From assembly GCA_003024175.1 (NCBI GenBank), contig MDYQ01000007.1:186001-250000 (forward strand): a stretch of 64,000 nt of DNA. Reading direction: 5' to 3'. Positions 8,069 to 61,872 of this stretch are shown one piece after another (position 1 is the first letter of the stretch; every line of letters begins with the position of its first letter). The position numbers and the translations under genes were made by a program. The DNA is from Planoprotostelium fungivorum (taxonomy: Eukaryota; Evosea; Variosea; Cavosteliida; Cavosteliaceae). The notes below the pieces were generated by a model. It saw only the letters and a program-made list of their open reading frames with translations. It did no database searches and was not told the origin of the DNA.

Positions 8069-9911
8069 ATGATGAAGATTCAGAGTCTTGTCAGACTCCG
8101 TCCAGTTCATCATAGAACGTTTCCTGCCATACATCGTCGTAATTACAACACAGAGGTCGACAATGCTTTGAACAGAGAGTCAGCGCACGCAACCGTCGGC
8201 TCAGAAGTTAATGGCTCACCATCATCAGGTAATCATGACGAATCAACCGTTTCTGATCGTGTACGAAGAAAAGGTGAAGGTACCCAAAAAGAAGGTTCTC
8301 CTCTTGACTGGCCCCACTGGTGGAGGAAAATCCTCTCTGGGCATGGATTATGCCAAACTCACAGGAAGTGAAATCGTATCTGCAGATGCCATCGCAGTCT
8401 TCAAAGGATGGACTATTGCTGCAGCTAAACCAACTGCACAAGATATGGCAGAGGTGAATTGCCATTTTCAACTGTTTGGAATCCACCAATCAATCCATCA
8501 ACCCATCGAAATCGTCTCGATGATCATGCACGGAGTGACCGAATATAGGTTCCTCATCACTTGGTCGACGTCGCAGAGTTCGGCGATGATTTCACCGCCA
8601 TCGACTTCAGAACACAAGCTCTCGCCGCCATCAATGTGAGTTCATCATCCCGACATCCATCTCACGATCGACAGAGCATCCACGACAAAGGAAAGATTCC
8701 AGTCGTCGTCGGTGGCAGCAACTTCTACCAGAGAGTTCTCCTCTACGGCCTCCACGAAGAATTACCTAAAGACACGAAGATGCTGCAGGAGCAGTACTCA
8801 TTAGACATGGCAAACGATCCAGATCTGCAGAGAAAGTGAGACCCTCGCGATGATGATGTTGATGATCATGATGATGATCACGATGTGATGCTGATGGTGA
8901 CACACTATCAGGTATTACGATCGTCTGTCAGAGATCGATCCCAGAGCAGCTTGGCACTTTGGTCCCGGTGATGCTTATCGCATCAGTCGTGCTCTCGCCG
9001 TTTGCGACGCCTCCGGTAGAACTTACTCCAGCTTCCGCAAAGGTGAAATTTCCCCGATTCTCCACCACTCTTCTACAACGTTCACGCCTCGACTGACTCG
9101 CGACAGAGATGAAAGAAGAAGATTTAGAATACGATTGGAGGAATTTGTTCGTCGTTTGGAGGAAAGTGACAGAGTTATCGAGAATAGAAGATCGCTGCGA
9201 GAAGATGATCATGGATGGACTCTTTCAGGAAATCATGGATTTCTTTCAACGGTTCGTCGAGCGTCCCAAGGAAGGAGGTGTGGGACGTGTGATGACGTGT
9301 GATGACGTCATACAGCGAATTTGAAGTATCCGTTGGGATGCATGGAGGCCGTGCAGTTTCTGTTGTACGGTGATTTTCAAGTGGATGCGTTCCAGAGATT
9401 CCTGGAATTATTCAAGACGAGCACCAGGTGAGATTCCGACTTTCCGACTCTTTCCAAATTTCCGACTCTTTCCAACTCTCTGCAGGCAACTGGCCAAATC
9501 ACAGAGGACCTGGGGTAGAGCGTCACCGATGACCTACTGGGTGCCTGCAGAGAAGATCACAGCACAAGACATCGATCGACTCGTGAATCTCCCTGCAGAA
9601 GAATTCCACCAACAGTTTTCGTCCGAAAATCAGGTATTTTATTTATATATTCTTACTCCGTCTACAACGTAACGCGAACTCGATGATGATGATGATGTTG
9701 ATCTGTATAGACGAGGATGAAGACGGAGGATGCCTTCGGAGCGAGAAAGGGATACAAATCGTTGGAGTCTAAATTCCAACTCACCAATCGATTCGTCGCG
9801 CAGAAGTTCTTAAACGGGCTCCAGAAGGAGATGAAGAAGTACCCGGACCACGTTTACACCGAGATGAGAAGGATGTTCCCCGAGGTAGTGGAGGTCAAGA
9901 GAACAGAATAA
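8069..9911 (+). CDS. tRNA dimethylallyltransferase (MiaA/TRIT1/IPT family), mitochondrial leader
   Basis: Transfers a dimethylallyl group to N6 of A37 in tRNAs that read UNN codons; relatives make cytokinin-like isopentenyl-adenines. The N-terminus MMKIQSLVRLRPVHHRTF is basic and acid-free, a good mitochondrial presequence. It is joined by an intron (about 8229-8270) to VKVPKKKVLLLTGPTGGGKS, the P-loop. Then come GSEIVSADAIAVFKGW, KPTAQDMAE, the substrate motif PHHLVDVAEF, and VVVGGSNFYQRVLLYGL, all MiaA hallmarks, followed by HFGPGDAYRISRALAV, GCMEAVQFLLYGDF and TRQLAKSQRTWGR (tRNA-recognition arm). It ends EVVEVKRTE with the stop at 9909-9911, and AATAAA overlaps that stop. I chose the start at 8069; an in-frame ATG at 7988 is possible. 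Eight or so short introns. Confidence 0.85.
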
Positions 9912-10220
9912 AGAATCTGAAAAGTCTTCATGTTGCAGTGTGATGGGATGTGATGATGAGTGACGAAGAGGAGACGGACGACGGGAAGACGTTTATTCTT
10001 GAGAAAGTGACCGCACTCGATCGCATGCATTGCGATCGTGATGAACTCAACAACAGATGGATCCATCATGATGATGGGACAGGAGGCATCCTCACGTATG
10101 TCCTGCAGCTCTCAGACAGTTGGCCAAGAAGGCAAACTCGTCCAATTTGTTCAACTTCCCGTTTCCCATCAGCACCCTACATCTCATGAGCCTCTTTGTA
10201 GATCGAGACTTTTAATTTTC
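9912..10220. other. Convergent intergenic spacer
   Basis: Lies between the 3' ends of the tRNA dimethylallyltransferase and RING genes. Short open frames on both strands show no domain or splice pattern. A run of GATGATG triplets is present, as elsewhere in this genome. I see nothing else. Confidence 0.4.
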
Positions 10221-10930: not shown

Positions 10931-11174
10931 TTCTGATGTTCTTCGATTCAATTGTTGATCGGATGATGATGGTGATTGAATATGTTTCTCTTCCCTCAGC
11001 GATTCACCGAAACGTTGCTCGTACCCTTCTTTCGTCAGCTGATGAGAACAGGCCTGTCACGCCAGTGTTTGTTTCTTTGGCTGTCTGGCTCGTTGTTTGG
11101 TGTGAAGAATGTGTACGGTTAACCGCGAAATCTGAGACGAGCAGAAGAACAGCAGCTCATCTCGATCCCTTCTC

Positions 11175-12841
11175 ATGAATCCCATCGTCAGGATCACTAG
11201 TGGAGGTATTCCACCTCGCATGCTATCTGCCGATCTGGCAGGTAGAGAGAGGCACACATTTGTTGCTGCCGTGGGATATAGGGGAGCGGGCTGGCACGAT
11301 TTCGGAGGTAAGTTGAATGTGAACATGCCATCTAACGTGATGATCTCAGCCATCGAGAGAACATTTCAACAGTGTCTGCTGCATTCCAAACAATTTGTCT
11401 TCCATCCGCACACGTGGTCAAAATGTTCACGAACAGATAAGGGAGTTTCTGCCATCAATAATGTCTTTTCCTTTCAGGTATCAATTGATGATCAGCCGAT
11501 CCACGATCTGAACCTTGATTGATCGTCGTTCGACATCATCTGACAATTTAAGGCAACGCGTCAACCTCTGAAAGAGAGTGTTGGTGATCTGTATGACATC
11601 ATTTCGAAACAACTACACAGCCACCTGAATCCATGTTTCACACTCTTCTCGTTACGTTCCACGACTTGTAAGATTGCACATTATTCATCAACCAAGCCTG
11701 ACGCGTCACCAGCTGAGTTCGAGGCCAGAAGCAGCTGTGAGAAGAGAACTTATCATTATCTCGTAGACATAGATTACTTGCTACCCAGAAACGTAAAGAA
11801 GGTGAAAGTTCATCGTTCACGATGGTATCTCATCATGATGCAGTCGCACATCGAAGAAGAGAAGAGAAAGATTGTGGATAGAATCAATCAATTGTGCCTC
11901 CATTTCATCGGCCGACACAATTTTGTTCACTACATCGACCGATCATCAGATGATGTGAGGCAACCCATTTGATTCCATTCTCTTCATGCAAACGTGATCA
12001 TCATCTGATCATCGTGTGTCATGCAGATCGATTACACATCGACGATCATGATCATCACATCAGACGCTGGTTGACTCTTGCAGAGAGAAGAAGAGAAGAG
12101 AAGTAGATCATTGGAAGACATGAGCAGCACGAGGACAGTACACTCCATGCGCTGCGTCGGAACCGTGGACAATTTTTTCGACATCGAGGTGATCCATTCT
12201 ACAACCCGCCAATCCGTGATATCTCACGCGAATGAAATCTGAGCGTTGTAGATCGTGGGTCGATCCTTCGCGAAGCATCAGATTCGGAAGATGATGGGAA
12301 TGCTGCTCATGGTCATCAAGCGTCAGATGCCAGATGATATCTTACCCGTGTCTCTCAAGACGTCTCAGAAGGTGAAGGTGTAGCTGATGTATGAATGGCT
12401 CATTGTAGACAGGTGCACACCCCATTAGCTCCATCAGAATATCTATATTTCGACCGTCCAGATTTCAAGGGGATTTACCGTGGCCTGATGGAGGTACCAT
12501 CTACAACGTTGTAGATGGTCGATTTACGTGCCACAGGTTCCAGCGGCGAGTAGAGAGCAATTTTTCAATCGTTTCATCCTGCCAGACGTCAAGGCCTATA
12601 CAGATCGCCCCATCGATACAGAACATTTCAAGGTGACGATCTACAACCGTGTAGATGATGACCCCACCAGGTACCGGTCAGGATAGAGAATCGAAAGAAG
12701 ATCCTGACGCAGATGCACCGTTGGGAGATGGAGATCGGTGGGTCATGTGATCGAGGCGACGTGATTGATGATGACTTAGGCATACCTGTCTCTGGAAACA
12801 CACCGCTCAAGTCTCTGTTGCCAAAGAAAGAAGAGACGTAG
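11175..12841 (+). CDS. tRNA pseudouridine synthase, TruA/Pus1 family
   Basis: Isomerises uridines in tRNA and possibly other RNAs. The fold is visible: TFVAAVGYRGAGWHDFGG, then AIERTFQQCLLHSK, then SKCSRTDKGVSAINN, which contains the catalytic aspartate in the SRTDKG motif. A later exon gives RTYHYLVDIDYLLP and HFIGRHNFVHYID, then GTVDNFFDIE, IVGRSFAKHQIRKMMGML (the conserved HQIR helix of TruA) and the C-terminus TPLKSLLPKKEET with the stop at 12839-12841. The overall order matches eukaryotic Pus1. Nearly every intron carries a half-site or whole copy of the dispersed CATCTACAAC/GTTGTAGATG palindrome, including the perfect copy at 12498-12517, so this gene is the best place to study that element. 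Confidence 0.85.
12195..12252. repeat. Split palindrome flanking one intron
   Basis: Within one intron of the Pus1 gene a 5' half (TTCTACAAC near the donor, 12197-12205) and a 3' half (GTTGTAG, 12245-12251, at the acceptor) face each other, so the intron RNA could fold with its two splice sites close together. Confidence 0.6.
12498..12517. repeat. Perfect 20-nt palindrome CATCTACAACGTTGTAGATG in an intron
   Basis: The perfect reference copy of the dispersed palindrome. It sits about four bases inside the 5' end of a short Pus1 intron. As RNA it would form a 10-bp self-complementary segment, or pair between molecules; as DNA it is a dyad-symmetric site. Confidence 0.9.
12638..12657. repeat. 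Near-perfect copy of the palindrome in the next Pus1 intron
   Basis: Reads GATCTACAACCGTGTAGATG, again just inside a GTGAC donor. Two consecutive introns of one gene therefore carry the same palindrome at the same place, which argues against chance. Confidence 0.85.
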
Positions 12842-14779: not shown

Positions 14780-14919
14780 CTGTCCGAAGGCATCTCAGAT
14801 CAGCGACACCACGTGTTGGTTGAATCAGAATCAGAATTTGTTTTGCTGACAAATGAGATCATGAACTGAGTTTTGTGACTGGGAAAAAGAAGAGATTTGC
14901 AATACATTTTTATTCATGA

Positions 14920-15512: not shown

Positions 15513-18500
15513 ATGTTGTCTGCAGTTTTATGGAGAACGGATGTCTCCCGTTTGAGGCCTGTTGAGTTCTCAAGTTGGAAATTCTTTCGAAGCATCAAAA
15601 CAAATGTCAATACGTCACGAAAGAAACAAGTCGAGAGCGATTCACATTCTATCACAAATGCAAAAGAATCTTCCAATGGCACTACGAACACAAAGAAGGT
15701 GATTACGATCCATGATCACATCATCAGGTCTGATGGTGTCATTTCACAGGCCAATCAGATAAAATCGAAGAAAACATCCATAGACAATGTCACAGCCTCA
15801 CCATCGAAATCATCATCCACGAGACAACACAAGCCACCGTCCCCATCATCATCCAAGGAAACCGACAAAAAACAACAAATCTCCAAGAGAGAAACGTCCC
15901 AAAGCAAAAAGAATGCCCTCACAACGACTCGCAGATCATCATCATCGAAAGCCGATGACGATCAGAAGACAAAAGACAAGGCGACCAAGACGCTGAAAGC
16001 CAAGAATGCTCCACAAAATTCCGAGAAAACCGACGGAAAAGTCATCGGAATATTCGGTGACATCCACTTCCAAGAGAGAGGTACGACCCACTTCGAGTCG
16101 AAATTTCCGCCGATTTTCACACACTCCAGGTCTCCAGCGCATCAAACGAACGGGCGATTGGATCATCGAAGAATTCGCCAAGCAGAAGGTTCGTCTACAA
16201 CGAGACAGAACCCCCCTGACTCTCTACAGGTGTCAGCCGTAGTCTGTCTGGGAGACGTATTAGACACGAGAGAGAACGTGTCAGTCATCGCTCAATCATC
16301 AGCCATCAGCTTCCTCAATAAGATGTCATCCACTCTGCGGGTGTGACGAATTATGACGTCTCAAGTGTCAATTTGACGTTCGTGATAGGTACCGCTTCAC
16401 ATTATTCTGGGAAATCACGACATGCATCTGAAGCATTCTCACGCGGTGACTTCTCTCGATTGTTTCAGTATGAATGGAATGCAATCACAGGACATCCATC
16501 TACACAGGTGTAGATCGATCTCAAACATCGCCAAATTCATCTTCTCACCCACTGAATTCGATACAATTGAATTTCATAATTCATACTGAACGGTCGATCC
16601 ACAGAGAATTGGGCGTTGTAAATGACATCTGTGGTATATCAGGTTTAATGATGCCTTACTACGAAGATCAATCTACAATCATCGATTATGTAGACAACAT
16701 CGTCAGGGAGAAGGGGTCAGAATGGACACGTCAGGTGGACCGAACATTCGTGCCGCTGTAGTGTGTCGCTGATACGTATAGAACCTCGTTGGGTTCGGAC
16801 ATCTGTCTGTGGAGGGAGCTTTTCAGCATTCGAAGAAAGAAGAAGTCAAATTGGGTGGAATCAGCGAGAGAAATTTCGATGGATTGAAGAGAACTTATTC
16901 CGGACATTTTCACGTTCCGCAGAACTTTGGAAGCAAATTTCATTACGTGGGAGCTCCTCTACAATTCAACTGTGAGTTTCAGATGATGATCTCATATATG
17001 ATATCGTCTGTGAATGGAGAAGGAGTCACGTGACATCGAAACTGATAGATGTTCAGTTGGCGATGCCGGGGAGACGAGAGGTATCGGACTGTATCACGTG
17101 AAGAAGGATCAATATCACTGGATCAGTAACCCATACTGTCAACAGTTTCTCATCGTAAGATATATTTCATCGAGTTTTCCACTGAATTTCTCAAGATGCA
17201 GTACAGTATGATGGAGAAATTCTTGGAAAATCCGAGCCGGTAATTTTCCGCATTGATTTCCCTCCTCTCTTCATCTACACCGTTGTAGATGGATCTGATC
17301 CTTTCATTTAGGATAAAAGATACATTCATATCGTTACGCTACACCGAATCGACTGACATGCTCTCTTTTCCACAACACCGCAAGAGACTATTGGAGGCAG
17401 GTGCCCTGGGTGTACAGCAGGTCAGTCAAATTTCTTCGAAATTTCTCATGAACGTTCCAGGAATCTCTCTTACGCAGAACTCTCAAGAAAAATTCCAGAA
17501 AAATGATTGGAAGGGAGACGGATATCTTATCTAACATTGAAAATTTCGTGAAAAATGTGAAAAATATTATCTCGAAGAGCAAAACAAAGAATCTGACCGA
17601 CCTCAAGAACTTTTTCGGTGAAATTTCTGTGATGGAGCGGATGATGACGTCATACAGGGGAGGAGGGTACGGTGGACCAAATGATTGGTCTGGGGAAGGA
17701 TATCGTACATATCGTGAACGATGAGAGGAACACGGCTAGGGAGGCCGATCGAGCTGGCCCCGTCTTCGTCGGAAATCTCCGCGAAATTTCAATGTCCAAC
17801 TTCATGGGTGTACAGGGTGTGTATTACCGTGCTTCTGAAATTTCACTGAAATTTCTGCATAGGAGAATTGAAGATTTCATTCGAAGAGATGAAAGATGGA
17901 ATCTGGGTGATGGAGGGAAAGAATGGATCGGGTAAATCGACCATCATAGAGGCACTCTCCTGGTGTCAATTCGGTGAATTCATCCGTTCCGACATGAACA
18001 AGGTGAGATCATCCATCTACAACGAGCCACGCATTCGTCTACAACGAGACATCTCACATTCGATTGAGCTTATTTCAGGACTTTGTCATCAACGACCAGA
18101 CGCCGAGTAAAGAGGCGGCATCGGTCACCGTGGAATACACCAACGGTTTCATCATCAAGAGATCCCGACGTAAAGGGAAACCCGACGTACTCCAGACGTA
18201 CCAGAGGGACCCAGATACCCAAGAGGTCATGGAGCTGTTGGACAACCAGAAGGGGGAGCTATCAAACACTCAGAAGACATTGAATCACATACTCGGCATC
18301 GATTTCTCTACGTATTCAAAATCGATCGTGCTGGGACAGGTGAGAATGTTCTGAGATATTTCTGGAGATTTTCTGTGAAATTTCTAAAGAATTTCGCAGA
18401 ACGTTTCGTTCAATTTTATTTCTGGCGGGAAAGAAGAGAGGAGGAAGGTATTGGAAGAGGCTCTGGGTGATGGTTCGTTGTAGATGAACCTTCGTCTCAT

Positions 18501-20515
18501 GAACTCAGGTTTGGAGAGAATCAATTTGTATTATGATTACGCACACACTCAGCGAAGAGAGGTGAGTTGCCATGAACAATTGATCCCGAATGATATTACA
18601 ACTTGCGATGAAGATATCATCACATCACATCACGATCAGATGATGGATGAGCTGATGGTTCATCAGATCGAACAAGAGTTGACACAAATCAACGTGAAGA
18701 GAGAATCATATGAGAGAGAACTCCACAATCTAGAGAGCATGACATCATCCACAAACGTGAGTCCATCATCCGTCGCATCTGATGATTCACTTTCAAATAG
18801 ATCGAACAGATCGAACATGAATTGAACGAGTTGAAAGAGAAGGTGAAATCGTTAGAGATGGAGCATCAAAAAAATACGGAGGGAACGAGACTCGAACTCG
18901 CGAACCCACCTCCTGACTCGTTCTCCCGCAAGTGGGTCATTTATTTCGATTTATTTTCATTTATTGTTCAGGGACAGGAGGGCGTTACAATCTCTCCTGA
19001 GAGAGGCACGACAGATGACCGAGTGAGATCCATCTACAGAGTTGTAGATGACTGAAGTCTTCAGAATGATCATGGAATTGAACGGACACGTACACAGAGA
19101 AGGAAGCAACTGCCCAACTTGTGGGCAAATCGTTCAAGATACCGAAAAGATGGAACAGAAGGTGACGTATTTTATTCTATTTTATTCTCATCAAATTGGG
19201 ACAGATCGCGACGATATTCGAGAAGGTGGTCAATGCCCTCGATACGGCGTCCCAATTGGAAGATTCACTGAAAATTTTGGGGGAGAAGCCCTGGAGACCT
19301 GAAGACCCACAGTGGACGTCCCAATTATCCATCATGATATCAGGTATGATATCATATCACCCCACACCCTCATGACGTCGTGACATCCCTCATGATATCT
19401 CACAGACGCTCTTGTGACATCAGAAACGATGGAGAGAGAAGAGACGAAGAGAGAGAAGGAATTTTCCGAGAAAAAGATGCAGAGGTTGAGGCTAGAGAAC
19501 GATCTCATGAGAGCAGATGCTTCGTTTCGATCGACTCTATCTACAACGATCAATCGCATCTCATCACTAGGTGATGTCCCAATCGAGTCCCAAATTCACA
19601 TCCCACAGAGGCCCAGAAGTCCCAAATTCGAGACCAGCACGAACAGCTCGTTTCCCGCCAAAACGAACTGAAGGAGAGACTGACCGCAGAAGTGGTTCGA
19701 GAGCCCGATCTACAACGCAGACACAGAGGCCTGTCCTTCTGGGAGATGGCATTCGACAAGAGGAGTAAGACGGGCATGGGTTTCTCTTCTCTAAGAGGTT
19801 ACGTCATGGAGGGTGCCGTGGCCTCTCTCAACGCCATCTGTGGAGAATACATGCAGACCTTGGGTACACCCAACCTCACCGTCACCTTCTCCTCTGATTT
19901 AGAGTTGGAAGAATCGTACGGAAAGAGGTGACATTCGATCACGTCTACATCGATCACGAACATCTTCCACGAACAGAGACACACTCATGTCTATATCGAT
20001 CACGATCATCTTCCACGAACAGAGACACACCCGTGTCTATATCGATCACGAACATCTAAAACTGACGGAAACCAGATCGGGTGGAGAGAGAAGAAGGACA
20101 GACCTGGTGACACTCTTTGCACTCTTTGAATTGGTCAGGCAGCACAGCCGACACCAGGCAGAGTACATGATCCTCGACGAGATATTCGACGCCCTCGACG
20201 CGGACGGTGACGTGTCACGATGTCTAAAGAGTGTGACGTGAAGTAGGTCTGAGCGCGGCGGAGGCGACCATCAAGATTCTGGCCGAGAAAGTGAATAAAG
20301 TGTTTGTCATATCACACAACCAATCGGTGATCGGTGAGTTCATCATCGTGATTGACGTCACGATGATGATGTGATTGGAGATCATGATGGTGACGATGGT
20401 GATAGGTTCTATGGATGTAGCGGGGAGGATCAGTTTCAAGATGAAGAGAGATGCAGGAGGGAAGGCAGAAGGTACAAGCTTCCGAATAGAGCCGGCCGGT
20501 GCGGTTGCCTTCTGA
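15513..20515 (+). CDS. Fused SbcD-SbcC (Mre11-Rad50-like) nuclease-ATPase with mitochondrial-type leader
   Basis: One continuous spliced frame encodes both subunits of the DNA-end-processing complex. The N-terminus MLSAVLWRTDVSRLRPVEFS is Arg/Ser-rich without acids at first, like a mitochondrial presequence, followed by about 130 low-complexity residues. The metallophosphoesterase (from residue about 177) has VIGIFGDIHF, CLGDVLDTRENV, IILGNHDMHLKHS, GFGHLSVEGAF and SGHFHVPQNFGSKFHYVG, covering the metal-binding motifs. Its C-terminal part runs in frame through VFVGNLREISMSNFMGV into the ATPase N-terminus WVMEGKNGSGKSTIIEAL (Walker A, about 17905-17955). Then come SIVLGQNVSF (Q-loop), coiled coil, a zinc hook NCPTCGQIVQ (about 19108-19137), more coiled coil, KRSGGERRRTDLV (signature), YMILDEIFDALDADG (Walker B) and VFVISHNQSV (H-loop). 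About 20 short introns. The eukaryotic norm is two separate nuclear genes; the fusion and leader suggest an organellar enzyme of bacterial or phage-like ancestry. Confidence 0.85.
16497..16515. repeat. Palindromic intron word, diverged copy
   Basis: CATCTACACAGGTGTAGATC, in an SbcCD intron of about 120 nt. Both arms are preserved with a shorter centre. Confidence 0.7.
17272..17291. repeat. Palindromic intron word
   Basis: CATCTACACCGTTGTAGATG, one mismatch from perfect, in the SbcCD intron at about 17240-17310. Confidence 0.85.
19031..19050. repeat. Palindromic intron word
   Basis: CATCTACAGAGTTGTAGATG, just inside a GTGAGATC donor of the SbcCD gene, upstream of the zinc-hook exon. Confidence 0.8.
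19944..20058. repeat. Tandem repeat of about 46-50 nt within an SbcCD intron
   Basis: About 2.3 copies of a unit containing TCGATCACGAACATCTTCCA and ACGAACAGAGACACAC. It lies in the intron that separates SYGKR from SGGERRR. Skipping 19929-20073 restores the ABC signature exactly in frame, which is why I treat the repeat as intronic rather than coding. Confidence 0.7.
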
Positions 20516-30655: not shown

Positions 30656-30679
30656 GTTGCTCGTGTTAAAAATGAACAT

Positions 30680-35283: not shown

Positions 35284-38200
35284 ATGTCTACTAAACTCAT
35301 CGGTCTGGGCCTGCCGGTGAGTCCGGTGATTCATATCATCCTCCTCTGATAGACTTTCTTCAGACACGCAGAATGGCGCCTTCCATTGTGCCCAGGAGGT
35401 GAAGACGGTGGCAGTATCGATGCAGCGTCGTGAACGACTTTTAGGTATTACGCCACTGAGCAACCCAAGTATTTCAACAAGATTCTGATCGCCAATCGTG
35501 GTGAGATCGCCTGCAGAGTCATTCGTACGGCGAAGAAGCTCGGTAAGACCCACCTTTCTCTTCATCGAGATCGAATGGAAGATACGTTATGGGATATCAT
35601 GATTCACCTCCTCAGGTATCAAGACGGTCGCCATCCATTCTGAGCCAGACATCAACTCCCTCCATGTTCGCATGGCCGACGAGGCTTACTGTGTCGTGAG
35701 TCCCTCTCCCTCCCCCTCTTCTTCGTATCTCTCGATGCATCTCTCGATCGTCCCGTCATCACGATGATCTCCCTCTCCTTCTCTTCGTCTCCTCTCGTTG
35801 ACTCTATCAGGGACCAGCCGCCTCTAACGCGAGTTACCTCAACATGGACAAGATCATGCAAGTCATCAAAGAATCTGGAGCTGAAGCCGTCCACCCCGGC
35901 TACGGTTTCTTATCCGAGAACGCTAAATTCGCAAAGTTGTTGGAAGAGAACAAGGTCGCCTTCATCGGTGAGTACAAAAACCCATTTTCCCGCGCTTTTT
36001 TCCCCCTCAATCTCTCCTTCAGGTCCCAACTCGTTTGCCATGTCTGCCATGGGTGACAAGATCGAGTCCAAAAAGTTGGCACAGAAGGCCGGCGTCAACG
36101 TCATCCCCGGAAGATTAGTCGATATCTCCGGTGTCCCAGAGATGCTCCAGATCGCAAGAGAGATCGGTTACCCCATCATGATCAAGGCATCAGCCGGTGG
36201 CGGTGGAAAAGGTGAGTGTCGCAATCAAATGAAACGGTCGCAATCATTTGAAACGGTCGCATATATTTGAAACGGTCACGTGCCTCGTGTGAACGTTCGA
36301 TAGGAATGAGAATCGCGTGGGACGACAAGGAAGCCGAGGAAGGATATCGTCTGGCAAAACAAGAGGCAGCATCTTCTTTTGGAGACGATCGCCTCTTGGT
36401 GGAGAAGTACATCGACAATCCCAGACACATCGAAATCCAGATCATGGCCGACGGCCAGGGAACTACGGTAGAACTCGCAGAAATTTCGCGTTTGACACCG
36501 ACAGTTGTACTTCAACGAGAGGGAGTGTTCGATTCAGAGGAGAAACCAGAAAGTGTTAGAAGAGGCACCGTCTCCGTTCATTGATGAAGAGACGAGAAAG
36601 GCTATGGGCAAGCAAGCGTGCCAGCTGGCCGAGGCTGTGGGCTACAAGTGAGACAGAGGGTGATGACGTGTGATGACGTCATACAGGTCCGCGGGTACCG
36701 TAGAGTTCTTGGTGGATTCTCAACGAAATTTCTATTTCTTGGAAATGAACACTAGGCTGCAGGTGAGGAGAAATTTGACGTGGAACTGGCGTGAAATTGA
36801 CGTTTCTGACAGGTAGAACATCCCATCACGGAATACATCACGGGTGTAGACCTCGTCGAACTGATGATCAAAGTCGCCGCCGGAAACAAGTGATCGACCG
36901 TCTACAACGAGCCACTCCTGACCCTCCACCAGGCTCGAAATGACCCAGAGTCAAGTCGGTCTGAAAGGTTGGGCCATGGAGGCCAGAGTTTACGCAGAAG
37001 ATCCTCTCAGAAATTTCTTGCCTTCCATCGGCAGATTGAACGGCTACAGAGAACCCACGGAAACATTCAAAGACGGTAACACGAGAGTCGATTCCGGTGT
37101 CGTGGAGGTATTTATTTCGATTTATTGTTTGGATTTGGGACGGAATTGAGACGGAACAGGGAGACGACATTCAGATCCATTACGACCCTCTCATCTCCAA
37201 GTTGGTTACGTACGGTACCGATAGAAGAGAGGCCATCAAGAGGATGTCCGCCGTGAGTTTCCCGCCACATTTGAAATTTGAATTGAAACGAGCAGGCCCT
37301 GGACTCTTACGTCATCCGCGGAGTCAACCACAATGTTCCGTTCCTCCGTTCGGTGATGGAGCATCCCAGATACATCCAAGGAAATCTCTCCACCAAATTC
37401 ATCGCCGAAGAGTTTCCCGAGGGATTCAAAGGTCATCAGCTGACTGAGAGTCAGAGTGATGAGTTGGTCGTGACTGGTGAGTCACCTTCACGATCATCAT
37501 CTGATCGTGATCCGATCATTGTCTGATCACGATCACGATCACGATCGATCGACGATCGTCATTCATCATCGCGATCGTCTTGAGATGATGATGGACGTTG
37601 ACACGTATCACAGCTTCTCTGCTGCACTACAACAAGCAATTGAGAAACTACTCCCAGGGAGGTATCCACTCCGTACCCAAAGGTACCCACCCTCTCCACA
37701 CCTCAACTGACGCGTTGTAGATGCGACAAACTTTGTCGTCACCGTGGAGGGAAAGCAACACAAGATCACCCTCGAAGACGTCCAGAAATCCGGACACAAA
37801 TTGTCCGCCACCGTACGTCCATCTACAACGAGCCGCTCCTGATCCTCCCAGGTACACATCGATGGTTCCCGCCATTACAAGTCCTCCACAGAGACTCCAT
37901 TGTCCCAGCAGGTCATGCAGGTTGATCTGGAGACCACAGACAAGATCGTCCAGAACAGCGTCATCGTATCTCAGTTCATCTCTGCCATACCACACGGCTA
38001 CAGATTGCAGCACTACGGTTCCATCTATGACGTACACGTGGAGAGCAACAGAGAGACTGAGCTGAGGTCCTGGATGCCAAAGAAGAAGGTGGTCGATACG
38101 ACCAAGTTCTTGGCATCGCCCATGCCAGGTGAGGCCATCTCATCGTCACCCATTTTCGACTCGCGAGAACATTGGATCATCTTTTCTTCAAAATAAGAAA

Positions 38201-38634: not shown

Positions 38635-42064
<3,430 letters not shown>

Positions 42065-42625: not shown

Positions 42626-45373
42626 ATGCGACCATACTTCCTGCTCGTCTCATGCTTCTTGTCGACCTTCCTCTTTGTCTCATCTGATGAGGGCTTCGTG
42701 GCAGAGAATGGATTGAGCACAAAGTATTGCGGGTACACAACAAGTCGCATGCATGCCACAGGAAATTGGTTATCGCAAAGTCCATACAACCAGACGGGTG
42801 ATTGGGCTCCTGATTCTACCGCCATCTTGGTACCCCAACTTCAGTATGGTATCTTGTGTCTGTGGAGTCTCAACGTCACGGGTCTACCTCCAAACACGAG
42901 CTTCGATTGGAAGGTATGATGGATCATTTCATTCGGAACACAACAATGATTCACATCATCCAAGGTGGCCGCGAGAGGCGACTGGGCTGTTGGAAACTGG
43001 GGTTGTCCTAGTGCAGACAACACCACGATGGACTCAACAGTGAATTGTCAATTCACATCATCCTCTAATGGAACCATCACCCTGAACATGCTGACGAGTG
43101 GATCGAACAGTTCATTTTATCGCATCTACACGGGTCTCGTTCCTTTGTCTGAAGGTATGGATGACGGAAGCATTCCGCTCACTCATATGATCAGCCATCG
43201 TTGATCCTGCCACGATTTTGGGTAGGGGATCCAATTTAGAGCCCGTTACAGACGGTTGGAACAATCATCCTGCGTGTGGTTACACCAATGCGAGATACAA
43301 AGCCTCCGGTAGTTCTCATGCGAGAACCACCTTCATCTCACGTTCAAACCAGGTGATTGGACAGATATCCTCTATGGCACGGGAATATGGAACGCCGCCA
43401 GCACCTTTGGTAACATGACCGCCATGCTGAACTCGGGTGTCGAATGTCTTCTGTCCATCACACTTCAAGGCTTACCCGCCAATGCCACTTATTCGTGGAA
43501 GGTGATATCTCCTTCGTCTTCTCCTCTTCCACCACGTCACCTCGTCCATCCTCTACATCATCATCATCTCCATCTCAAAGACGTCGTAGGTGGTGGCAGG
43601 AGGAGATTGGAATTATGCCAATTGGGGTTGTGCGGCCGATGGAGTCTCCACCTTCGCTGCCTCAAATTGTAATTTCACCACCAACGCACGTGGTTCCATC
43701 GTGCTCAACATCATCACCTCCGGCAACGACACGACCTATCGCCTCTACACAACAGATGCCCCTGTGACCTCACCAGACAACTCTGTGAAGTCTCCGGAGA
43801 ATTTCCCCACTTGGGCGATTGCAGTCATCGCGGCGGTCGGTGCCGTGTTCGTCATCTCCATCATCATCGTCATCATCGTGGTGCGTAAGAAGAGGAACGA
43901 GAAGTCGAGGGAGAACGAGGAGACTGCCGACATCAGTCTACTGTCCAACGCGTTGAAGGTATTCTACATCGTTGTAGATGGACGATGACAATGATTTAGA
44001 TTGATTTCGATGAATTAAAGAATTCGAGAATAGTGGGAGAGGGAGCGTGAGTCACACGATATTCCGTCGATATATTAATTTATTTCATTTTATTCTCCTG
44101 ACAGAGACTCTCAGCTTCGGTGTCGTCAGCTTGTGCTGGTGGAGAAAGACACAAGTTGCGGTGAAACAGATGACGTCATCTAAGACCATCACGACAAAGG
44201 CGCTCCAAGAGTTCCTGGGGGAGGTGCAGATCATGCAGGTGATTCATTCGAGTTCGTTTCACGCGAGTCTGACGCAGGTTCAGAATCTCAGACCTCATCC
44301 AAACGTGGTACTATTCATGGGTGAGTAGAGAAATTCCTGATTACTCTATCTACAATGCTGATGTAGATAGGTGTATGCGTTCCCCCTCAGCCGTTCTGTA
44401 TCGTCACGTGAGGATTCTCACCTTTATTCTATTTTATTCTTTTTGGCTCACGCTCCTCAGTGAATTCTGTGACCGAGGCAGTCTCTTGAATTACCTTCGG
44501 TCAAGCCAAAACATTCCAGTTGAAGAACAATTCAGACTCATCAGTGGTATCGCACTTGGCATGTTACATCTACACAGCGAGAGGGTGAGCCGCTCTTCCA
44601 CACCACGAGACGTACTCAAACGTAACTTCAGATCGTACATAGAGATCTCGCAGCTAGAAATGTTCTCTTGTCGAAACATTTAGAACCTAAGATCGGAGAT
44701 TTCGGAATGTCAGTGAGATTCCTAATTCTCCGAATTCCGACCGCCATCATCTGGAATTCAAATTTCAAACAGGTCGAGATTGACTGAGGCCGAGAATAAC
44801 GCGGGAAAGACACAGAACGACATCGGACCGATCAAATGGATGGCACCCGTACGTAGACCCCTCCTCGAATAATCTCTGAATCTTCTCTGAAATATCTCAG
44901 GAGGCCATCAGTAGTCACGAATACTCCATCAAGTCAGACGTCTTCTCTTTCGGTGAAATTTCACCGCAATTTTCGAGAATATTCACAGGAATCCACAGGC
45001 GTTGTAGTGTGGGAGATCGTCCACCCCAAACAAGAGCCGTACGAGGACGAGACACTGATGACAGTGGCTATGGACGTCATCCAGGGTAAGAGGCTCACCA
45101 TCTCGGAGACTTGTCCTCCAAAGTTGGTCGCCCTCATGATCGGTAGGAGATGATGAAGCGGATGAGTCTAACTCTTTAAAGATTGTTGGCACGGGTCGCC
45201 TGAGATGAGACCGGACTTCATTCAGATCTGTGATCGATTGGGAAACAAGCAGGAAGAGCGTGAGCGGTGGTGATGACGGACGGTGAGAGCTGACGATGTG
45301 GACAGCGGCACCCACCATGGAGGCATCACCAAGTCATGGACACGAGTACGAACCGATGAATTTCGATCGTTGA
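42626..45373 (+). CDS. Receptor tyrosine-kinase-like transmembrane protein with two tandem ectodomain modules
   Basis: Signal peptide MRPYFLLVSCFLSTFLFVSS. Two related extracellular modules each have a CGYT start, a SLNVTGLPPNTSFDWKV or TLQGLPANATYSWKV strand, GDWAVGNWGC or GDWNYANWGC, and a final TSGSNSSFYRIYTG or TSGNDTTYRLYTT; many N-glycosylation sites. These resemble carbohydrate-binding beta-sandwiches, but the family is unassigned. One transmembrane helix follows (AIAVIAAVGAVFVISIIIVI), then KKRNEK. Kinase: IVGEGAFGVVSLCWWRK, VAVKQM, FLGEVQIMQ, LSEFCDRGSLLNYLRS, IVHRDLAARNVLLSKH, KIGDFGMS, GPIKWMAPEA, KSDVFSFGVVVWEIVHP. HRDLAARN and PIKWMAPE are tyrosine-kinase-style motifs, and all catalytic residues are present. 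The last exon after the intron at about 45260-45306 ends YEPMNFDR. Likely a surface sensor; ligand unknown. Confidence 0.85.
43961..43980. repeat. Palindromic intron word, diverged
   Basis: ATTCTACATCGTTGTAGATG at the donor end of the intron after the juxtamembrane exon of the receptor kinase. Confidence 0.7.
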
Positions 45374-50875: not shown

Positions 50876-55166
<4,291 letters not shown>

Positions 55167-55306
55167 TTGTGGAGGAACGAATAAATTCTTCTTTGTGGGA
55201 GTGATTCACACTTACAGACCATAAGCGATGACATTGAAATGAAATGGTGAAAAGAAGAGAATAGACCAATTTCGTTTCGTTATTGTTTATTGTACACGTT
55301 CGTAGT

Positions 55307-56188
55307 TCATTTGTCTTGCAGGATTTGGTTGAAGTTGATCACGCTGACTCCCGCCATCATGGCTTTGATGCTGAGCCCGTGATCTTCTGTGACCAGCGTC
55401 ACACGTTGTCCCTCCCTCATCTTTCGGTATGCGGCTGAGAGGATGATGTCGTCGTTGTTCTTCACGGCCAGTTCCGGGCTCTCCTCTTTCGATGACTCGA
55501 TGGTGATCCACGGATCTTGTTGGCACTCTCTGATGCAGTGGTGCAGTGATTGCAGAGTTCTGCGGGCGTCGAGGGCGAGTTGTTGCTTTTGGCTATTGCA
55601 GAGGCCGTAGAGTTCGTTCATTACGACCTGGCAGACGACAATGGAGGTGTTGGGTCTCTTCAATTGGTACAGTTGGTGGACATTGTGAATGAGGACGTTC
55701 GTATCCAGGACGTAAACGTGTCTTGACTCTGACGGTGTTATGCTGGGCTCAGTTGGAAGTGTCGCTGGCTGCGAATGGGCAGGTGAAGAGTTAAATGATT
55801 CGATGTCTGGAGTGCTCCGTTGTAAGAGCGTTGTTGACGTTGTCTGTGGCTTTGGCTTCTTCAGTGAGGTCTTTCTGGTGCTAATCTTCCTCTTTTGAAT
55901 TCCTCGTAGGGATTTCTGCTGGTTTCTAGTGTGATCAACACGAGAGGGAACATGATACGACATGTTTGAAGGTGCCAACTGCGTCTGCATCATGTTATGG
56001 AGTATCACAACATGATTCCAAACGTTATAACACGCTTCAGAACAAGTCCATTTCACGTCTCCATGATGGGGATCACGTCCTACGGCTATGGGATCACGGC
56101 ACTTATTGCGACAGACAAGACAAGCTTCGTCATACACAGACTGTATTCTATAGGGTGATGGTGTGGGATAGCTGGCTACGCTGACCAT
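55307..56188 (-). CDS. PIN-domain nuclease-like protein with N-terminal Cys cluster, intronless
   Basis: Single-exon minus-strand frame from MVSVASYPTPSPYRIQSVYD (start 56188). The open frame runs further upstream without an ATG. An N-terminal zinc-binding cluster reads CLVCRNKCRDPIAV and KWTCSEACYNVWNHV (C-x2-C...C-x3-C, MYM/FCS-like). A low-complexity Ser/Thr/Pro linker follows. The C-terminal PIN domain has HVYVLDTNVLIHNVHQLYQL, VVCQVVMNELYGLCNSQKQQ, NNDDIILSAAYRKM and VTLVTEDHGLSIKAMMAGVS, with the acidic residues (D, E, D, D) in place. This resembles the SWT1/PIN_4 class of RNA endonucleases involved in RNA quality control. It is intronless, unlike most neighbours. Confidence 0.8.
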   Translation of the reverse strand: MVSVASYPTPSPYRIQSVYDEACLVCRNKCRDPIAVGRDPHHGDVKWTCSEACYNVWNHVVILHNMMQTQLAPSNMSYHVPSRVDHTRNQQKSLRGIQKRKISTRKTSLKKPKPQTTSTTLLQRSTPDIESFNSSPAHSQPATLPTEPSITPSESRHVYVLDTNVLIHNVHQLYQLKRPNTSIVVCQVVMNELYGLCNSQKQQLALDARRTLQSLHHCIRECQQDPWITIESSKEESPELAVKNNDDIILSAAYRKMREGQRVTLVTEDHGLSIKAMMAGVSVINFNQILQDK

Positions 56189-56777
56189 GTGGTTCTCTCT
56201 TGTGTGATGGATAAAAAGTGATGTCTCCCTCGTCTTCTCTCTCTTTCTTTGAACCGGATAGCTTTCTTGGTTGTAGAAATTTCCAAGAACGTGCCACACA
56301 GTCGGTCCCTCTACAACAGTGACAATTTTGTATTTGATCGAATATGACTATGGATGTGATATCGATCCATTCAAAGCGTGTCGTGATTCCATGCAGAGAC
56401 CAGACACTTTGTCTTCCAAAGATGATATCGCAGAGAGGTGTCCAGTAGATGTGAAATTTGGCGTTTCACACCTGCTCTCACACACTGAGCGTTCCCGAAC
56501 GAAAGCATCCATAAGGACCTCTTTCTCTCACGAAAGGTTGTTCTATGCTTCTAAGTGCGATGTCGTTCCGTCCACTCTCCTTCCACACTCTATGCATCTC
56601 GTGCTCACCTCATCCTCCCCACGAATCACCAGCCTCTATGGATGTCTGTGTCTATATCTCACCTACTTAAAGTATTTCGACCGCTAGGATGACAGTGATG
56701 TCAGACACCAGCCGAAAAGGCCGACGCTGTGACAATCTACAAAGCCTTCGTCTTTGCAAGCAGGAGGGAGGACAGAG
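56189..56777. other. Divergent intergenic region between PIN and RhoGAP genes
   Basis: About 590 nt. A plus-strand frame (56319-56687) of about 120 residues has scattered cysteines but no domain and no good start. Probably promoters of both genes, possibly with an upstream exon of the PIN gene near 56280. Confidence 0.35.
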
Positions 56778-59700
56778 ATGAGCTCTCCACAGGTGCAACG
56801 ACCTTCTGAAGAGGATCGGGGAAAGACTAGAAGGAAGCTGCAGACCGTCGTCTCTGCACTGAGATTGACCAAGCAGAAATCCGAATCGAAGCCCATCACG
56901 ACCGTCCTCACACGTCTGAAGCCATCATATGCGTGGCTCTTCCCTGTGAGTCTATAGATATGTCGAACTGATATTGGACATCATCATTTTACCGATTTCT
57001 GAACGACATTGAACAGACGGATAAGCTTACGGTCCCTGAATGTGTGGAAGAATGGATCTCTGTTATATCGGAGAGAGGTCCCGCTGTAGAGGGTATCTTT
57101 CGCATATCAGCGCAGGCCTCTCGTCTCCGATCCCTCAGCGAGCAATATGAGAGGGGTTCGTATTCTATCTTACGTTTCATCTCTTCGTGATCACCCACAT
57201 CCTCTTAATCTGAGATGTCCATCAGGTGAAAGAGTGGATCTCTCGTCTTACACACAAGATATCGACGTACACGTTATCGCTGCTCTTTTGAAGACTTACC
57301 TCCGTGAATCGCCAGAACCATTACTCACATTCGATCTATACAATTCATTCATTGCTACTGATTGTGAGTCGAAGATGTTTGTCTCCTCCGATGTTAATCA
57401 TGCAACAGCGGTCAAAGAACATAAAGACAAGAGAGAGGCCATCTTCGCGCTCCTCAAGAGTCTACCTCCACCCAATTTCACCTTCTTCAAACATCTGACA
57501 ACCATGCTGTCTGCCATCGCTGCATCTTCAGATGTAAACAAGATGAGCTTTTCTAATCTAGCCATTGTCATCGGTCCAAACGTGATGCGACCGAAAGTGA
57601 GTCCATACGTTTACACACGTTTCACACGACTCACCATCGTCACAGATTCAGACGACCGAGTCCATCATCTCAGACACGAACACCATCAACACCATCGTCG
57701 AATTGATTCTCAGAGATTCAGAATTCTTCTTCGGTGGCGAATCAGGTGAATCCTCGATTCATCTTCCGATGTGACGTGATGAATGACATCATCATCAGGT
57801 CCCTCTTTAGAACACAGCAACAGCCAAGGAAGTCAAGAAGATGCAGACAACATACCCTCCATCGTCAAGAAGAGAATGCAATCCAAGCACTTGTCTAACG
57901 GCCCCGACGCTCTCGCCAAGATCTTGGACGGGTGAGCCCACTCCCTTCCACCCATTCTCCCAATCGGCTCGTTGTAGACGAATCTCATCTTTTCTCAGGC
58001 ACGATCCTTCCATTCCCATCACACCTACCCTACGCCGCCTGCACATGTCGACATCTTTCAGTGTCGACTTAGAGAACAAGGTCAAGTCACTGAACGAAGA
58101 GAACAAGTCACTCCAAAACAAACCGGAAGAAGATCTACCCAAATTCGAACTCAGATCTTCCGCGCCTTCCCAGCAACTCTCCAGCGTTCCCAAGACCCTC
58201 GTACAGATAACGGGCCGCAGCGCATCTGCGACGCAGATTCCAGTCGGAAGGCCACCTTCGGCCACCTTGTCCCCATCGGCTTCTCCCAAGTTCAAGCCAG
58301 GGAAGACGAGTGAGTCTGCCTCGTTGTAGATGGAAGAATGACGACGTCCCAGGGTCTCCCACTCTGACTTCTTCTCCTTCCTTCTTGAAGAAAACAGAGA
58401 AGAAGAAATCAGTCATCGACATTCTAAAGAGAAAGAAGGAAGACAAACCGAAAGATGCGGGGACGGAAGAGATACAAGAAGAAGAGAGGAGAAGGAGGAT
58501 CGCAGAGTTTGCAGAGCAAGAGAGAAAACTGTTGGAAGAGAGAGAAAGAGTTGAGAACGAGATGAGGGTAATGATGATGAGAGGGTGTGACGCAGATTCT
58601 GACACGATCGCAGAAACAAGATTGGGAGAGGATACAGGAGCATCTGAAGAAGATGAGGGAGGAGGAGAAGGGAAAATTCAAGGAAAATGTGGGGGGAAGT
58701 TTCCTCGTACTTTCCAAGCCGGTGGAGAAGCTGCCACCTGCCAAGCCACAGAAACCTTTCAATATGAGAGTGAGCCAGGAGTCTTCATCTACAACGAGAC
58801 AAGAGACACCATCTACAACGAGACTGGATGTACCATCTACAACGAGACTGGATGTACCATCTACAACGAACCAAGAACCAGCGATCACGGTCACACAAGA
58901 GACACCATCTACAACGAGCCAAGGAGTTTCGATCGACGCCGAACCAGAGATCCCATCTACAACGAGCCAAGAAGTCGTCACCGCCACAGAAGAATCTGAG
59001 GCTACTAAATTGAGTTCATCTACAACGATCCCAGGCCCCGTCACTGCACCAGAATCTCCAACTATTATTAGAGCCGCCACGGGATCCATCGATAACGGAG
59101 CCGTTCCCATCCTTCTATATACAACGAGCCAGGTCAACGCAACGGAAGACTCGAAGGATGCCGAAGAACCGGAAATTTCCGAGAAAGATCCAACCCCAGT
59201 GGAGAAGCACGTCACAACCATCGTCGAAATGGACGTACCAGAGGATCCATCTACAACGGACACGGAATCTATGACTTCAGAGAGGGACGAATCTACAACG
59301 AGCCACGAGAGAGAGCCACTGTACAGGAGCATGTCGACGTCGACAGTGGGAGCAGAAGATTCGCCGAAAGATCTGTCTACGAAGACCAGAGGATCCGATC
59401 TGTTGTACAGGAGTGTGTCGTCGCCCGTGATGGGACAACCCATGCAGAGGAGCTCATCTACAACGAGCCAATTGAGCGAGGAAGGAGAGACAGAAGAGAA
59501 GGAGAAAGAAAAAGAAGAAGAGGAGACAGAAGAAGAGAAAGAGAAACAGAGAGAGGAAGAGAAGGTGGAGACAGAAGAAGAGAAAGTATTCGAGAGGAGC
59601 GCATCTACAACGAGCGTCGAACACGTCTCCCAGAAGGAAGAAGAATCCACAAAGAAGGAAGAGGCCGTCGAATCTACAACTCTACGCGAAACATCCGAGG

Positions 59701-61872
59701 TACCTCCATCTACAACGGAGGACGACAGTGACCGCAATTCCGCCACGGAAGACGCTTCATCTACAACGATGGAGGACCGTGACAAGGAGAGAGGTGAAAT
59801 ATACTCGAAATTTCGCGGGAATCTCACGACCACAGACGAAGAGAAGATCAATCGACTGACTACGGCCATGATTGAAGAATTAGAGATCACACAAAATGCT
59901 CTGAAGAGGCTGCAAGATATTCTGTCGGTCACCGTTCAGACGAACAACATCCAGGGCATACTGGTCATCGCTAGATCTGTGCAGTCACTCAAGAAGGTAA
60001 GATGTCGTGAGAAATTTCTCGGAAAATTCTGACGGGGGTAGTACATGTTAGAAGGAGAAGACCCTTACATTCCCACACCAGAAGATAACGTGAAAGTGTT
60101 TCACTACAGAAAGGATAATCTCGACGATTCAGACATCCGCTTGAAGGTGATCTCATCTACAACGTTGTAGAGGGGCTCAAAATTTCGGGCAGGTGAAGAA
60201 GATCAACGAGGCCATTAACGTTGCCATTCGTTTTGTAGAAGACGAGACGTGTGCCTTGATCGATGAGACGGTGGAGAATATCAACGTGGTCAGCGAAGAG
60301 GTGTGTCCATCTACATCGTTGTAGACGAACTGATCCAAAAATAGATCGCCATGAGTAACGCGGTCGAAGTCATCCAGACCGTACGTCTCATTCAGAAGGT
60401 GAATTCGAAATTCAAATTTCCCGCCTCATTTCTGGCAGGTTGTAGATGCCCTCCAAGAGCCGGTCATCAGCGAAGAAACTTCCGAGAAATTGGAAAATTT
60501 GAAATCGGACGTTGTAGATTACCGCCAGAAGATTTCACTCAAATTAGAATCCGATCACCTGACAAAGAGGTTCCACTCTACAGATCAAAGTCTATGGATG
60601 ATCAGTCTCTTGCGTGTCATCAAGAAGGTGAAGAATGGTTCACTGGACGCACTCACTAACGGATGTAGATTTTCGATTTGAGTATGGACGAGCTGAGAAA
60701 CTTTGAAATGCCACAATTTGGGACGAGACCTTTGGCGCCAACGAGTCTCAATATGGAAGATCAACGGGCACAGAATCTGAACGGAATGGTCCGATTGGTC
60801 ATACAGAGCGTGAGTGACGTACGTAACGGGAGATCTCTGAGAGATTTCCAGGTGGAAGACAGCGTAGAGTACGTGTGGAAGGAGGTATCTACGACGAGAG
60901 ATCTCGCCACTGCCGTTACGACTTGTTTCAAATTGAAGATCATCCATCAGGTCGTCGTTCAACTGGCCGAGGTGAATTTGAATTTCAAATCTCCCGCCAG
61001 ATCTGTGACCCAGAGCAGGAGCCGAGGCCGGTGGTTATGAGAAGGTCAGCCTTCAGTCAATCGATGGATTCTTTACCCGTCAAGTGAGTATCTACAACAT
61101 TGTAGATAGACGTAAGATCGAGTATTCATTTTTCTCAGGAAATCATTCTCTCCCGCCCACAGTACGAGTGAGCCTCGATTTTCATTGAAATTTCAGCTTA
61201 CTATCCAGGTGTCAACAATCAGATGTCACCGGATCGTTTACGTAAATTGGGAGAGTTCACAGCGTCTGCGGCAGAGAACATCCTCCGTGAGATGTCTGAG
61301 CTGAAGATCTGTGTGCAAGAAGCACAGACGATAGAGGACTCTGTACGTTACAGCTCCATCGTGAGAAACATACAGAAGGTGAGAGGTCACATCATCATCA
61401 TCATCATCTTGAATCACCATCATCTATCATCACACATCACATCATCATGGCGTGTGCCAATGATATCATCATGACATGGATCACATGGATCACGTTCCAT
61501 CGTCCCATGCGTCATGATGAGGAACACTTGATGACGCAGAGAATAGGCATGGACGGACCCCAATCTAGACCCCAGCACCTTGACCGTCATGAGCCCACCT
61601 CCGTCCTCTAAACCAGTATCCGCAGAACATCTGGCAAAGGTGAGCACATCATCATCACAGTCCATCATCGACGACCATGGAGAGACATTCTAAAACGTGA
61701 CAGATACAATCTCTCAAAAAGTTGACGATCAACATGTTAGAGGACATAGAGGCAGCAGTCCAAGAGGTAGTCCGCAGGTCTAGAGCCGGTGCCTCTATAG
61801 AGGAGATGACCGCAGACACTCAGTTCATGAAGAAGATCAGATTGCTGATGGACAAGACGAACTCGAGTTGAA
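56778..61872 (+). CDS. RhoGAP protein with Ser-Thr-Thr repeat tract and C-terminal helical region
   Basis: Starts MSSPQVQRPSEEDRGKTRRK. The RhoGAP domain shows TDKLTVPECVEEWISVISER, AVEGIFRISAQASRLRSL (arginine finger in FRIS), IAALLKTYLRESPEPLLTFD, MSFSNLAIVIGPNVMRPK and TINTIVELILRDSEFFF, so it should stimulate GTP hydrolysis by a Rho/Rac-type GTPase. A coiled coil (VDLENKVKSLNEENKSLQN) and Ser/Pro linker come next, then a charged helix (IAEFAEQERKLLEERERVEN). An exon of about 1.4 kb (58600-59997) has repeated PSTT/STTS units whose DNA is the dispersed CATCTACAACGA word. The C-terminal third is alpha-helical (INRLTTAMIEELEITQNALK, VRLVIQSVSDVRN, MLEDIEAAVQEVVRRS), perhaps a vinculin/talin-like bundle, unassigned, ending LLMDKTNSS. 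About 15 introns. Confidence 0.82.
58786..59768 (+). repeat. Coding array of about 15 copies of the CATCTACAACG word
   Basis: Start positions of clear copies: 58786, 58810, 58834, 58858, 58906, 58954, 59017, 59248, 59290, 59455, 59602, 59707, 59758, plus variants near 59117 and 59670. All are on the same strand and in the same frame, giving Ser-Thr-Thr. Several extend to CATCTACAACGAGCCAAG, close to the intronic form CATCTACAACGAGCCACTC. Early copies form a local tandem of 24 nt. Confidence 0.9.
60154..60173. repeat. Palindromic intron word
   Basis: CATCTACAACGTTGTAGAGG, identical to the perfect palindrome except at its end, in a RhoGAP intron. Confidence 0.85.
60308..60327. repeat. Palindromic intron word
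   Basis: CATCTACATCGTTGTAGACG, in the next RhoGAP intron, again just after the donor. Confidence 0.8.
61089..61108. repeat. Palindromic intron word
   Basis: TATCTACAACATTGTAGATA: compensating changes at both ends (TA...TA in place of CA...TG) keep most of the dyad, which suggests selection for, or concerted change of, the pairing. Confidence 0.8.

Follow-up and report, generated by a model that had tools for sequence, protein, structure and literature searches.

The origin of new introns is a long-standing question, and a 64-kb stretch of contig C461 from a compact amoebozoan genome (the window in what follows; contigs and fetched loci carry the working labels C and L) raises it in a particular form: why does one short word, the 8-mer CTACAACG, recur in the introns of so many genes on both strands, in some of them as a dyad? 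A sequence-only reading of the window had offered an RNA hairpin, a seed for intron gain and a DNA-binding or recombination site as answers. On balance we lean towards the second, and propose that the word belongs to introner-like elements of ~40 nt that are inserted as DNA in both orientations, with the word as their shared recognition piece. The genome is labelled Planoprotostelium fungivorum at NCBI and is in fact Protostelium aurantium according to PMC10639083.

Concentration of the word in short introns

Genome-wide counts, which cover 36.9 Mb in 471 contigs and take the reversed word as control, show that the excess of the word is neither a matter of chance nor confined to the window. 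The 11-mer CATCTACAACG occurs 4478 times (control 30), the dyad TCTACA-N4-TGTAGA 1800 times (control 7), and the 20-mer palindrome, at ≤3 mismatches, at 1736 sites (control 1).

Introns were called by our own gene finder, which was trained only on sequence and allows GT-AG introns only. It predicted 958 introns in 264 kb, 538 of which are flanked on both sides by strong coding exons (median 46 nt, donor consensus GTGAGT); the branch point TGAC mostly lies 9-10 nt ahead of the AG. A set of 487 introns, each ≤120 nt, served as the confident short introns. The exact palindrome was the selection criterion for 17 of the 20 fetched stretches, which biases this sample; it was not for the window and L005-L007. 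Two genes were compared with NCBI proteins. The model of the propionyl-CoA carboxylase alpha gene (35284-38520) equals the protein except at the last junction, and that of gene 55307-56299 is wrong, with 55875-56141 called one long intron that is coding sequence in the NCBI protein. For the carboxylase, a metagenomic relative with 84% identity shows no gaps where the three word introns lie; its contig has 2153 bases for 716 residues, so it is without introns and is probably a transcript.

The density of CTACAACG or its complement agrees with the intron association first claimed: 109 occurrences in the confident short introns (5.0/kb; 0.4 expected in total under an order-2 model), against 0.32/kb in long introns, 0.13/kb in intergenic DNA and 0.73/kb in coding exons. 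These occurrences are 43 sense and 66 antisense, and the core TCTACAAC is found 54 times on each strand, dyads counting for both. The 90 confident word introns include 31 with a dyad-like pair, 21 with a single sense and 24 with a single antisense site, and 18 acceptor-terminal sites. The 8-mer is present in 51 of the 83 genes having at least four exons; word introns do not cluster by gene (chi-square 90.8, 82 degrees of freedom) and show no difference in intron phase (p 0.17). Per quintile of intron rank they number 16/183, 17/154, 35/170, 34/152 and 28/200. A promoter transcription-factor site was rejected on the basis of the intergenic density and the lack of concentration of word introns at the gene start.

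The word itself is sharp. Intron sites comprise 98 exact 11-mers and 84 with one mismatch, 80 of which vary at positions 0, 1, 8 or 10 (0-based) and only four elsewhere, leaving TCTACA nearly invariant; two-mismatch sites number 69, against 18 for permuted words. Because this core is sharp while flanks outside the motif are at background level, what is conserved, or copied, is mostly the word by itself.

Word density in the window is above average, with 29 11-mers in 64 kb (17 outside the exon 58614-59793) against 0.12/kb genome-wide, and with 54 occurrences of the 8-mer where a dinucleotide model expects 0.9. Among its 225 predicted introns, 18 hold the exact (C/A)TCTACAACG or its complement, 25 the 8-mer CTACAACG/CGTTGTAG and 34 the 10-mer at ≤1 mismatch, so that the "about forty" introns of the sequence-only reading were right in kind and somewhat high in number. 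Eleven of the twelve dyads it named are exact TCTACA-N4-TGTAGA at the positions given; that at 44346 is present but matches more loosely. Ten of the eleven lie in predicted introns as claimed, but only three of these introns are of high confidence, and the dyad at 16497 falls in a weak predicted exon. All five sites of a "longer form" are in predicted introns (18003-18078, 36890-36932, 37813-37851, 39567-39603 and 39838-39875), but the full 19-mer CATCTACAACGAGCCACTC occurs only at 39848-39866. The dyads, listed without strand, and the other introns concerned are:

12498..12517, full 20-mer dyad CATCTACAACGTTGTAGATG, in intron 12372-12536 (low confidence)
12640..12655, dyad TCTACA-N4-TGTAGA, in intron 12633-12670 (low confidence)
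16499..16514, dyad in a weak predicted exon, possibly an overlooked intron
17274..17289, dyad in intron 17240-17311 (low confidence)
19033..19048, dyad in intron 19023-19064 (low confidence)
33868..33883, dyad in intron 33850-33891 (minus strand)
39210..39225, dyad in intron 39192-39234 (minus strand, low confidence)
43963..43978, dyad in intron 43959-43999 (low confidence)
60310..60325, dyad in intron 60301-60344
61091..61106, dyad in intron 61084-61138 (low confidence)
18003..18078, plus strand, intron with two direct word copies 22 nt apart
39838..39875, minus strand, intron with the full 19-mer CATCTACAACGAGCCACTC

A two-strand family of near-identical introns

Two introns of the propionyl-CoA carboxylase alpha gene define a family that we call A1:

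36890..36932, plus strand, A1 introner-like intron; junction agrees with the NCBI protein
37813..37851, plus strand, second A1 introner-like intron of the same gene

A similarity search with 36023-38417 found both introns to recur elsewhere at 89-95% identity. Their layout is donor - TCCATCTACAACGAGCCACTCCTGACCCTCCCAG, and the 23-mer CTACAACGAGCCACTCCTGACCC has 152 genome places at ≤3 mismatches against 0 for the control. Of 43 places examined (35 fetched for the purpose and eight from earlier searches), 42 are called introns, 31 on the strand of the word and 11 on the opposite strand; seven of these 11 had been fetched for a GAGTCA variant, so that 11/42 is no estimate of frequency. The gene finder read the remaining place (L059) as coding sequence; it gave four of the 42 introns a length above 50 nt. 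The surrounding exons, compared by eye, are unrelated except in the paralogous pair L070/L072, which shares the same exon flanks; A1 thus has the four or more similar introns in non-homologous genes by which an introner is defined. Similarity reaches the acceptor in same-strand copies and stops there, and on the donor side conservation begins ~4-5 nt before CTACAACG, the donor stretch being variable.

Linked variants divide A1 into subfamilies, with eight exact copies of CTACAACCCGCCACTCCTGACCC and five of CTACAACGAGTCACTCCCGACCC. The latter is an inverted subfamily, and its two changes would, by our reading, make a branch point on the reverse strand and remove the forward one. CTACAA precedes GCCACTCCTGACC in 40 of 42 places, those with T nine bases upstream lying outside the search; the word is far commoner without this A1-specific part GCCACTCCTGACC than with it. 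In same-strand copies CTGAC and CAG are the usual choice. Among the 11 opposite-strand introns, seven (L070-L076) have both branch point and acceptor formed by word bases, as in GTGAGAGGGTGGGGGAGGGTCGGGAGTGACTCGTTGTAG, with TGAC as branch point and TTGTAG as acceptor, both from the word end; the other four (L047, L048, L054 and L057) have branch point and acceptor beyond the word. The inverted acceptor module GGGAGTGACTCGTTGTAG has 395 places at ≤2 mismatches (control 1), as pattern matches only. A position just inside the donor or at the acceptor, as first described, is right for many copies, and in the family examined orientation accounts for it. Introns of the window that carry the word in antisense include:

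37683..37720, plus strand, intron ending in TGACGCGTTGTAG at the exon boundary, the inverted word being branch point and acceptor
32942..32999, minus strand, inverted word as acceptor
34329..34374, minus strand, inverted word as acceptor
52763..52894, plus strand, antisense word near the donor and again as acceptor
58310..58352, plus strand, antisense word near the donor

Other copied introns and intron words

Copying extends to single introns outside A1. A search with 57799-61378 matched the following two at 84% and 94%, respectively, the matches spanning donor to acceptor in each case; the remaining matches were the query itself, an acidic repeat (query 1670-1809) and one in the coding repeat.

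60147..60192, plus strand, dyad intron with a copy at C455 (locus L082)
60399..60438, plus strand, intron without the main word, with a near-copy in another gene on C18 (locus L083)

The sequence AATTCGAAATTCAAATTTCCCGCC of the second is near-identical in L083, which reads as an apparent glycerol-3-phosphate dehydrogenase gene. In the two searched stretches, five of 23 predicted introns (36648, 36890, 37813, 60147 and 60399) have near-copies elsewhere.

Words other than the main one are also concentrated in the confident short introns: GAAATTTC, TGACGTCA and GTACGTAC are strongly enriched, TCACGTGA only slightly (11 against 6.9, order-2 model), and one or more of five word classes, the main word included, are represented in 178 of the 487 introns. 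Two further families are built from such units:

365..404, plus strand, family B intron, its GAAATTTC units spaced by 11 nt
introns with GAAATTTC: 365-404, 17421-17460, 33682-33724, 36468-36504
36648..36686, plus strand, family C intron (TGATGACGTG units) with near-copies elsewhere
9278..9315, plus strand, family C intron
introns of TGATGACGTG-like units: 9278-9315, 36648-36686, 40906-40946, 54844-54884

The family C 21-mer GATGACGTGTGATGACGTCAT has 627 near-copies against 0 for the control, and five more were viewed by eye only. In some introns GAAATTTC recurs with a period of 11 nt, the 3-nt linker being variable; close pairs number 261 genome-wide (control 0), and among 50 listed, 21 are spaced by exactly 11 nt and 15 by 22 nt. 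Identical 5-mers at distances of 10 and 11 nt are present in 74 and 69 of the 487 introns against ~36 in dinucleotide shuffles; since the values are near shuffle level once word introns are removed (41 and 36 of 295 against ~28), this periodicity is mostly due to the words. The helical phasing suggests double-stranded DNA as the substrate.

Proposed mechanism and the evidence against it

We propose that the word is the mark of very small introner-like introns, most examples being 37-46 nt long, whose copies would insert into exons as DNA in either orientation. In forward copies CTACAACG begins ~8-16 nt into the intron and the copy brings branch point and acceptor (CTGACCCTCCCAG); in inverted copies the word itself can serve as the acceptor module, TGACTCGTTGTAG at the exon boundary. 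The dyad is two words head to head around a fixed 4-nt centre. A DNA-acting protein would recognise the shared word, and word introns without further similarity may be older or recombined members. Our ground for proposing DNA insertion is that introns are called at inverted copies, and our ground for a shared recognition piece is the large number of introns that have the word in common. The presence of words on both strands suggests a DNA-level activity aimed at short introns; we know of no system that explains such an activity.

Several observations weigh against this proposal. No clear target-site duplication was found in 27 same-strand and 11 opposite-strand A1 copies over 16 offsets, the largest within-locus match being 0.33 against 0.19 for the 27 copies and 0.64 against 0.47 for the 11. 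By inspection A1, which runs from CTACAACG to CCCAG, has no terminal inverted repeat, so that neither of these traits of DNA transposons of the miniature inverted-repeat transposable element (MITE) type is evident in A1. A length of 40 nt would be unusually short for such elements. Copying can be demonstrated for few word introns (152 A1 places against 4478 11-mers), and the 395 inverted-module and 627 family C places are known as pattern matches, not one by one. When 810 introns were compared all against all, few long matches emerged, and the best dyad pair shares 28 nt, 8 of them beyond the dyad. The surroundings mostly differ while the word is sharp, which simple decay of old copies would not predict; the 69 against 18 two-mismatch sites leave room for some decay. 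The idea of an introner-like seed is therefore supported for a subset, namely the 152 A1 copies, the copied dyad intron and the 627 family C places, but most word introns are no proven copies. With moderate confidence we regard the system as an introner variant; a selected DNA-binding word is its main rival, and both may hold together.

Alternative explanations

That rival supposes a dimeric DNA-binding protein whose site lies in gene bodies, for chromatin, recombination or silencing, with selection keeping the word in short introns since coding DNA can rarely hold it. We consider it possible, if on the whole unlikely. It accords with the near-invariance of TCTACA and the use of both strands, and with spacing: of 56 dyad pairs no more than 20 nt apart, 52 have a gap of exactly 4, and direct pairs of CTACAACG peak at 22-23 nt (34 among 100 pairs listed; 9, 11 and 7 at 21, 24 and 33 nt, several in apparent coding repeats). 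The word GAAATTTC behaves alike, 36 of the 50 listed pairs being exactly 11 or 22 nt apart. Exons also show the word at the nucleotide level: outside the repeat exon below, 10 of 19 Ser-Thr-Thr are encoded by TCT-ACA-ACG against 0.26 expected. However, strict criteria keep only 12 of 78 exon sites, six of them in the repeat exon, some exon cases being missed introns, and because of this the exon signal is weaker than the Ser-Thr-Thr count alone suggests. Moreover, the word is scarce in intergenic DNA (4 in 30.7 kb) and long introns (6 in 19.1 kb), it is mutated to CATCTATAACG in one P450 duplicate, and no protein has been identified. The earlier suggestion of a DNA-binding or recombination site is compatible with the use of both strands, the fixed dyad gap and the direct repeats at 22-23 nt.

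The repeat exon had escaped the sequence-only reading:

58614..59793, plus strand, coding exon in which CTACAACG stands 13 times, all in one frame

It holds 12 of the 29 exact 11-mers of the window and 13 10-mers. Read from its sequence, it belongs to a RhoGAP-like gene, and TCT-ACA-ACG encodes 13 of its 14 Ser-Thr-Thr. Short tandem arrays of the word, with a period of mostly 17 or 23 nt, were seen at C8:38995-39104, C105:28229-28291 and C49:132864-132961.

A broader view would combine this rival with the proposed insertion: introns would largely consist of a small vocabulary of palindromic, helically phased DNA words read within gene bodies by DNA-binding proteins, and two-way mini-introners of ~40 bp would spread them. 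We regard it as rather unlikely in this general form.

An RNA route of spread, with excised introns reinserting by reverse splicing as has been suggested for the introner-like elements of fungi, appears improbable. Such a route would be consistent with the absence of clear target-site duplications and visible terminal inverted repeats and with similarity that stops at the acceptor in same-strand copies; only sense copies are expected from it, however, and 11 of the 42 A1 copies are called introns on the opposite strand, which argues against reverse splicing alone.

Quite improbable is a pre-mRNA hairpin (CATCTACA/TGTAGATG) that brings the splice sites together, as first suggested. Dyads can fold, intron 60147-60192 reaching a z of -2.8, and stems of six bases are present in 45 of 130 word introns, shuffles giving 4.4; such stems are also found, however, in 112 of 642 introns without the word (27.0 in shuffles). 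The other five folds have z of -0.93, -1.38 (a piece of a long intron), 0.78, 1.00 and 0.16, and the three non-dyad word introns among those folded are no more stable than shuffles. At the variable flank of 45 intron dyads there are 30 A-T, 8 G.T, 5 A.C and two other combinations with no G-C and hence no compensated pair, a comparison of low power given the near-invariant arms. The dyad is present in just 31 of the 90 confident word introns, single half-sites outnumbering dyads, and donor strength, acceptor strength and length are alike in 66 word introns and 400 others. On flank covariation, the folding of six introns or parts of introns and splice-site strength, the hairpin was rejected as the main role.

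Convergence on splicing signals alone, with strong branch-point, acceptor and enhancer words arising repeatedly, is highly improbable. The inverted word and TGACGTCATCAG do fit the local branch-point rule (TGAC 9-10 nt before AG) and the 8-mer is commoner antisense (66 against 43), but identity with linked variants extends far beyond splice signals in unrelated genes and the sense word lies away from both splice sites, whose strength is no different.

Other features of the sequences

A viral or prokaryotic origin of the word was rejected, with 0 exact palindrome matches in viral and prokaryote collections and 0 matches of the A1 pattern in viral contigs; Rfam gave 0 matches above the gathering score in the window. 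L031 and L032, an inverted pair on C52, read as two P450-like copies that are identical over ~1.2 kb and then diverge by a few per cent, the word being mutated in one copy of one intron; this pattern suggests recent gene conversion. A 93-bp tandem repeat of 6.4 copies at 21627-22221 codes for ankyrin-like repeats. The single-exon oxidoreductase gene at 3674-4567 has up to 45% identity to bacterial plasmid genes, and a gene transfer is possible.

Comparison with known systems

If confirmed, the proposed mini-introners would be the first amoebozoan introner-like system that we know of; a literature search on amoebozoan introners gave a single paper, on direct repeats near splice sites. They would be very small elements in which one sequence yields an intron either way, and, since simple reverse splicing should not produce inverted copies, would offer a clean test of DNA against RNA intron gain. 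Phasing of intron words has a parallel in nematode introns, which carry periodic A/T clusters (PATC): words such as GAAATTTC in family B recur about once per helical turn. The main word, unlike PATC, is no A/T cluster and sits in introns of ~40 nt.

Most introner families are consistent with DNA transposition, and the method by which they were found allows opposite orientations (Gozashti et al. 2022, PMC9860276); the main text does not name Protostelium. The elements described here resemble those introners in that near-identical introns lie in unrelated genes and the element carries part of the splice sites, and both orientations, which are allowed and not required, are seen in A1 (31 same and 11 opposite). 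They differ in their size of ~40 nt, in lacking a clear target duplication or terminal inverted repeat, and in one short word shared far beyond any family. Introner elements of Amoebophrya (PMC7789003), defined among non-canonical introns, have inverted repeats of 8-20 nt that pair the two intron ends, direct repeats that overlap the boundaries, and a likeness to non-autonomous elements. Inverted repeats within repeated introns and similarity to non-autonomous elements are common to both systems, whereas here the dyad lies inside the intron around a 4-nt centre, direct repeats were not found, and our models hold GT-AG introns only. With the fungal introner-like elements and symmetrical stwintrons (PMC8469720) the introns described here share insertion without duplications and symmetry within the intron; the symmetrical sequences described there are reported to function only on the coding strand, whereas 11 of the 42 A1 copies are called introns in the inverted orientation.

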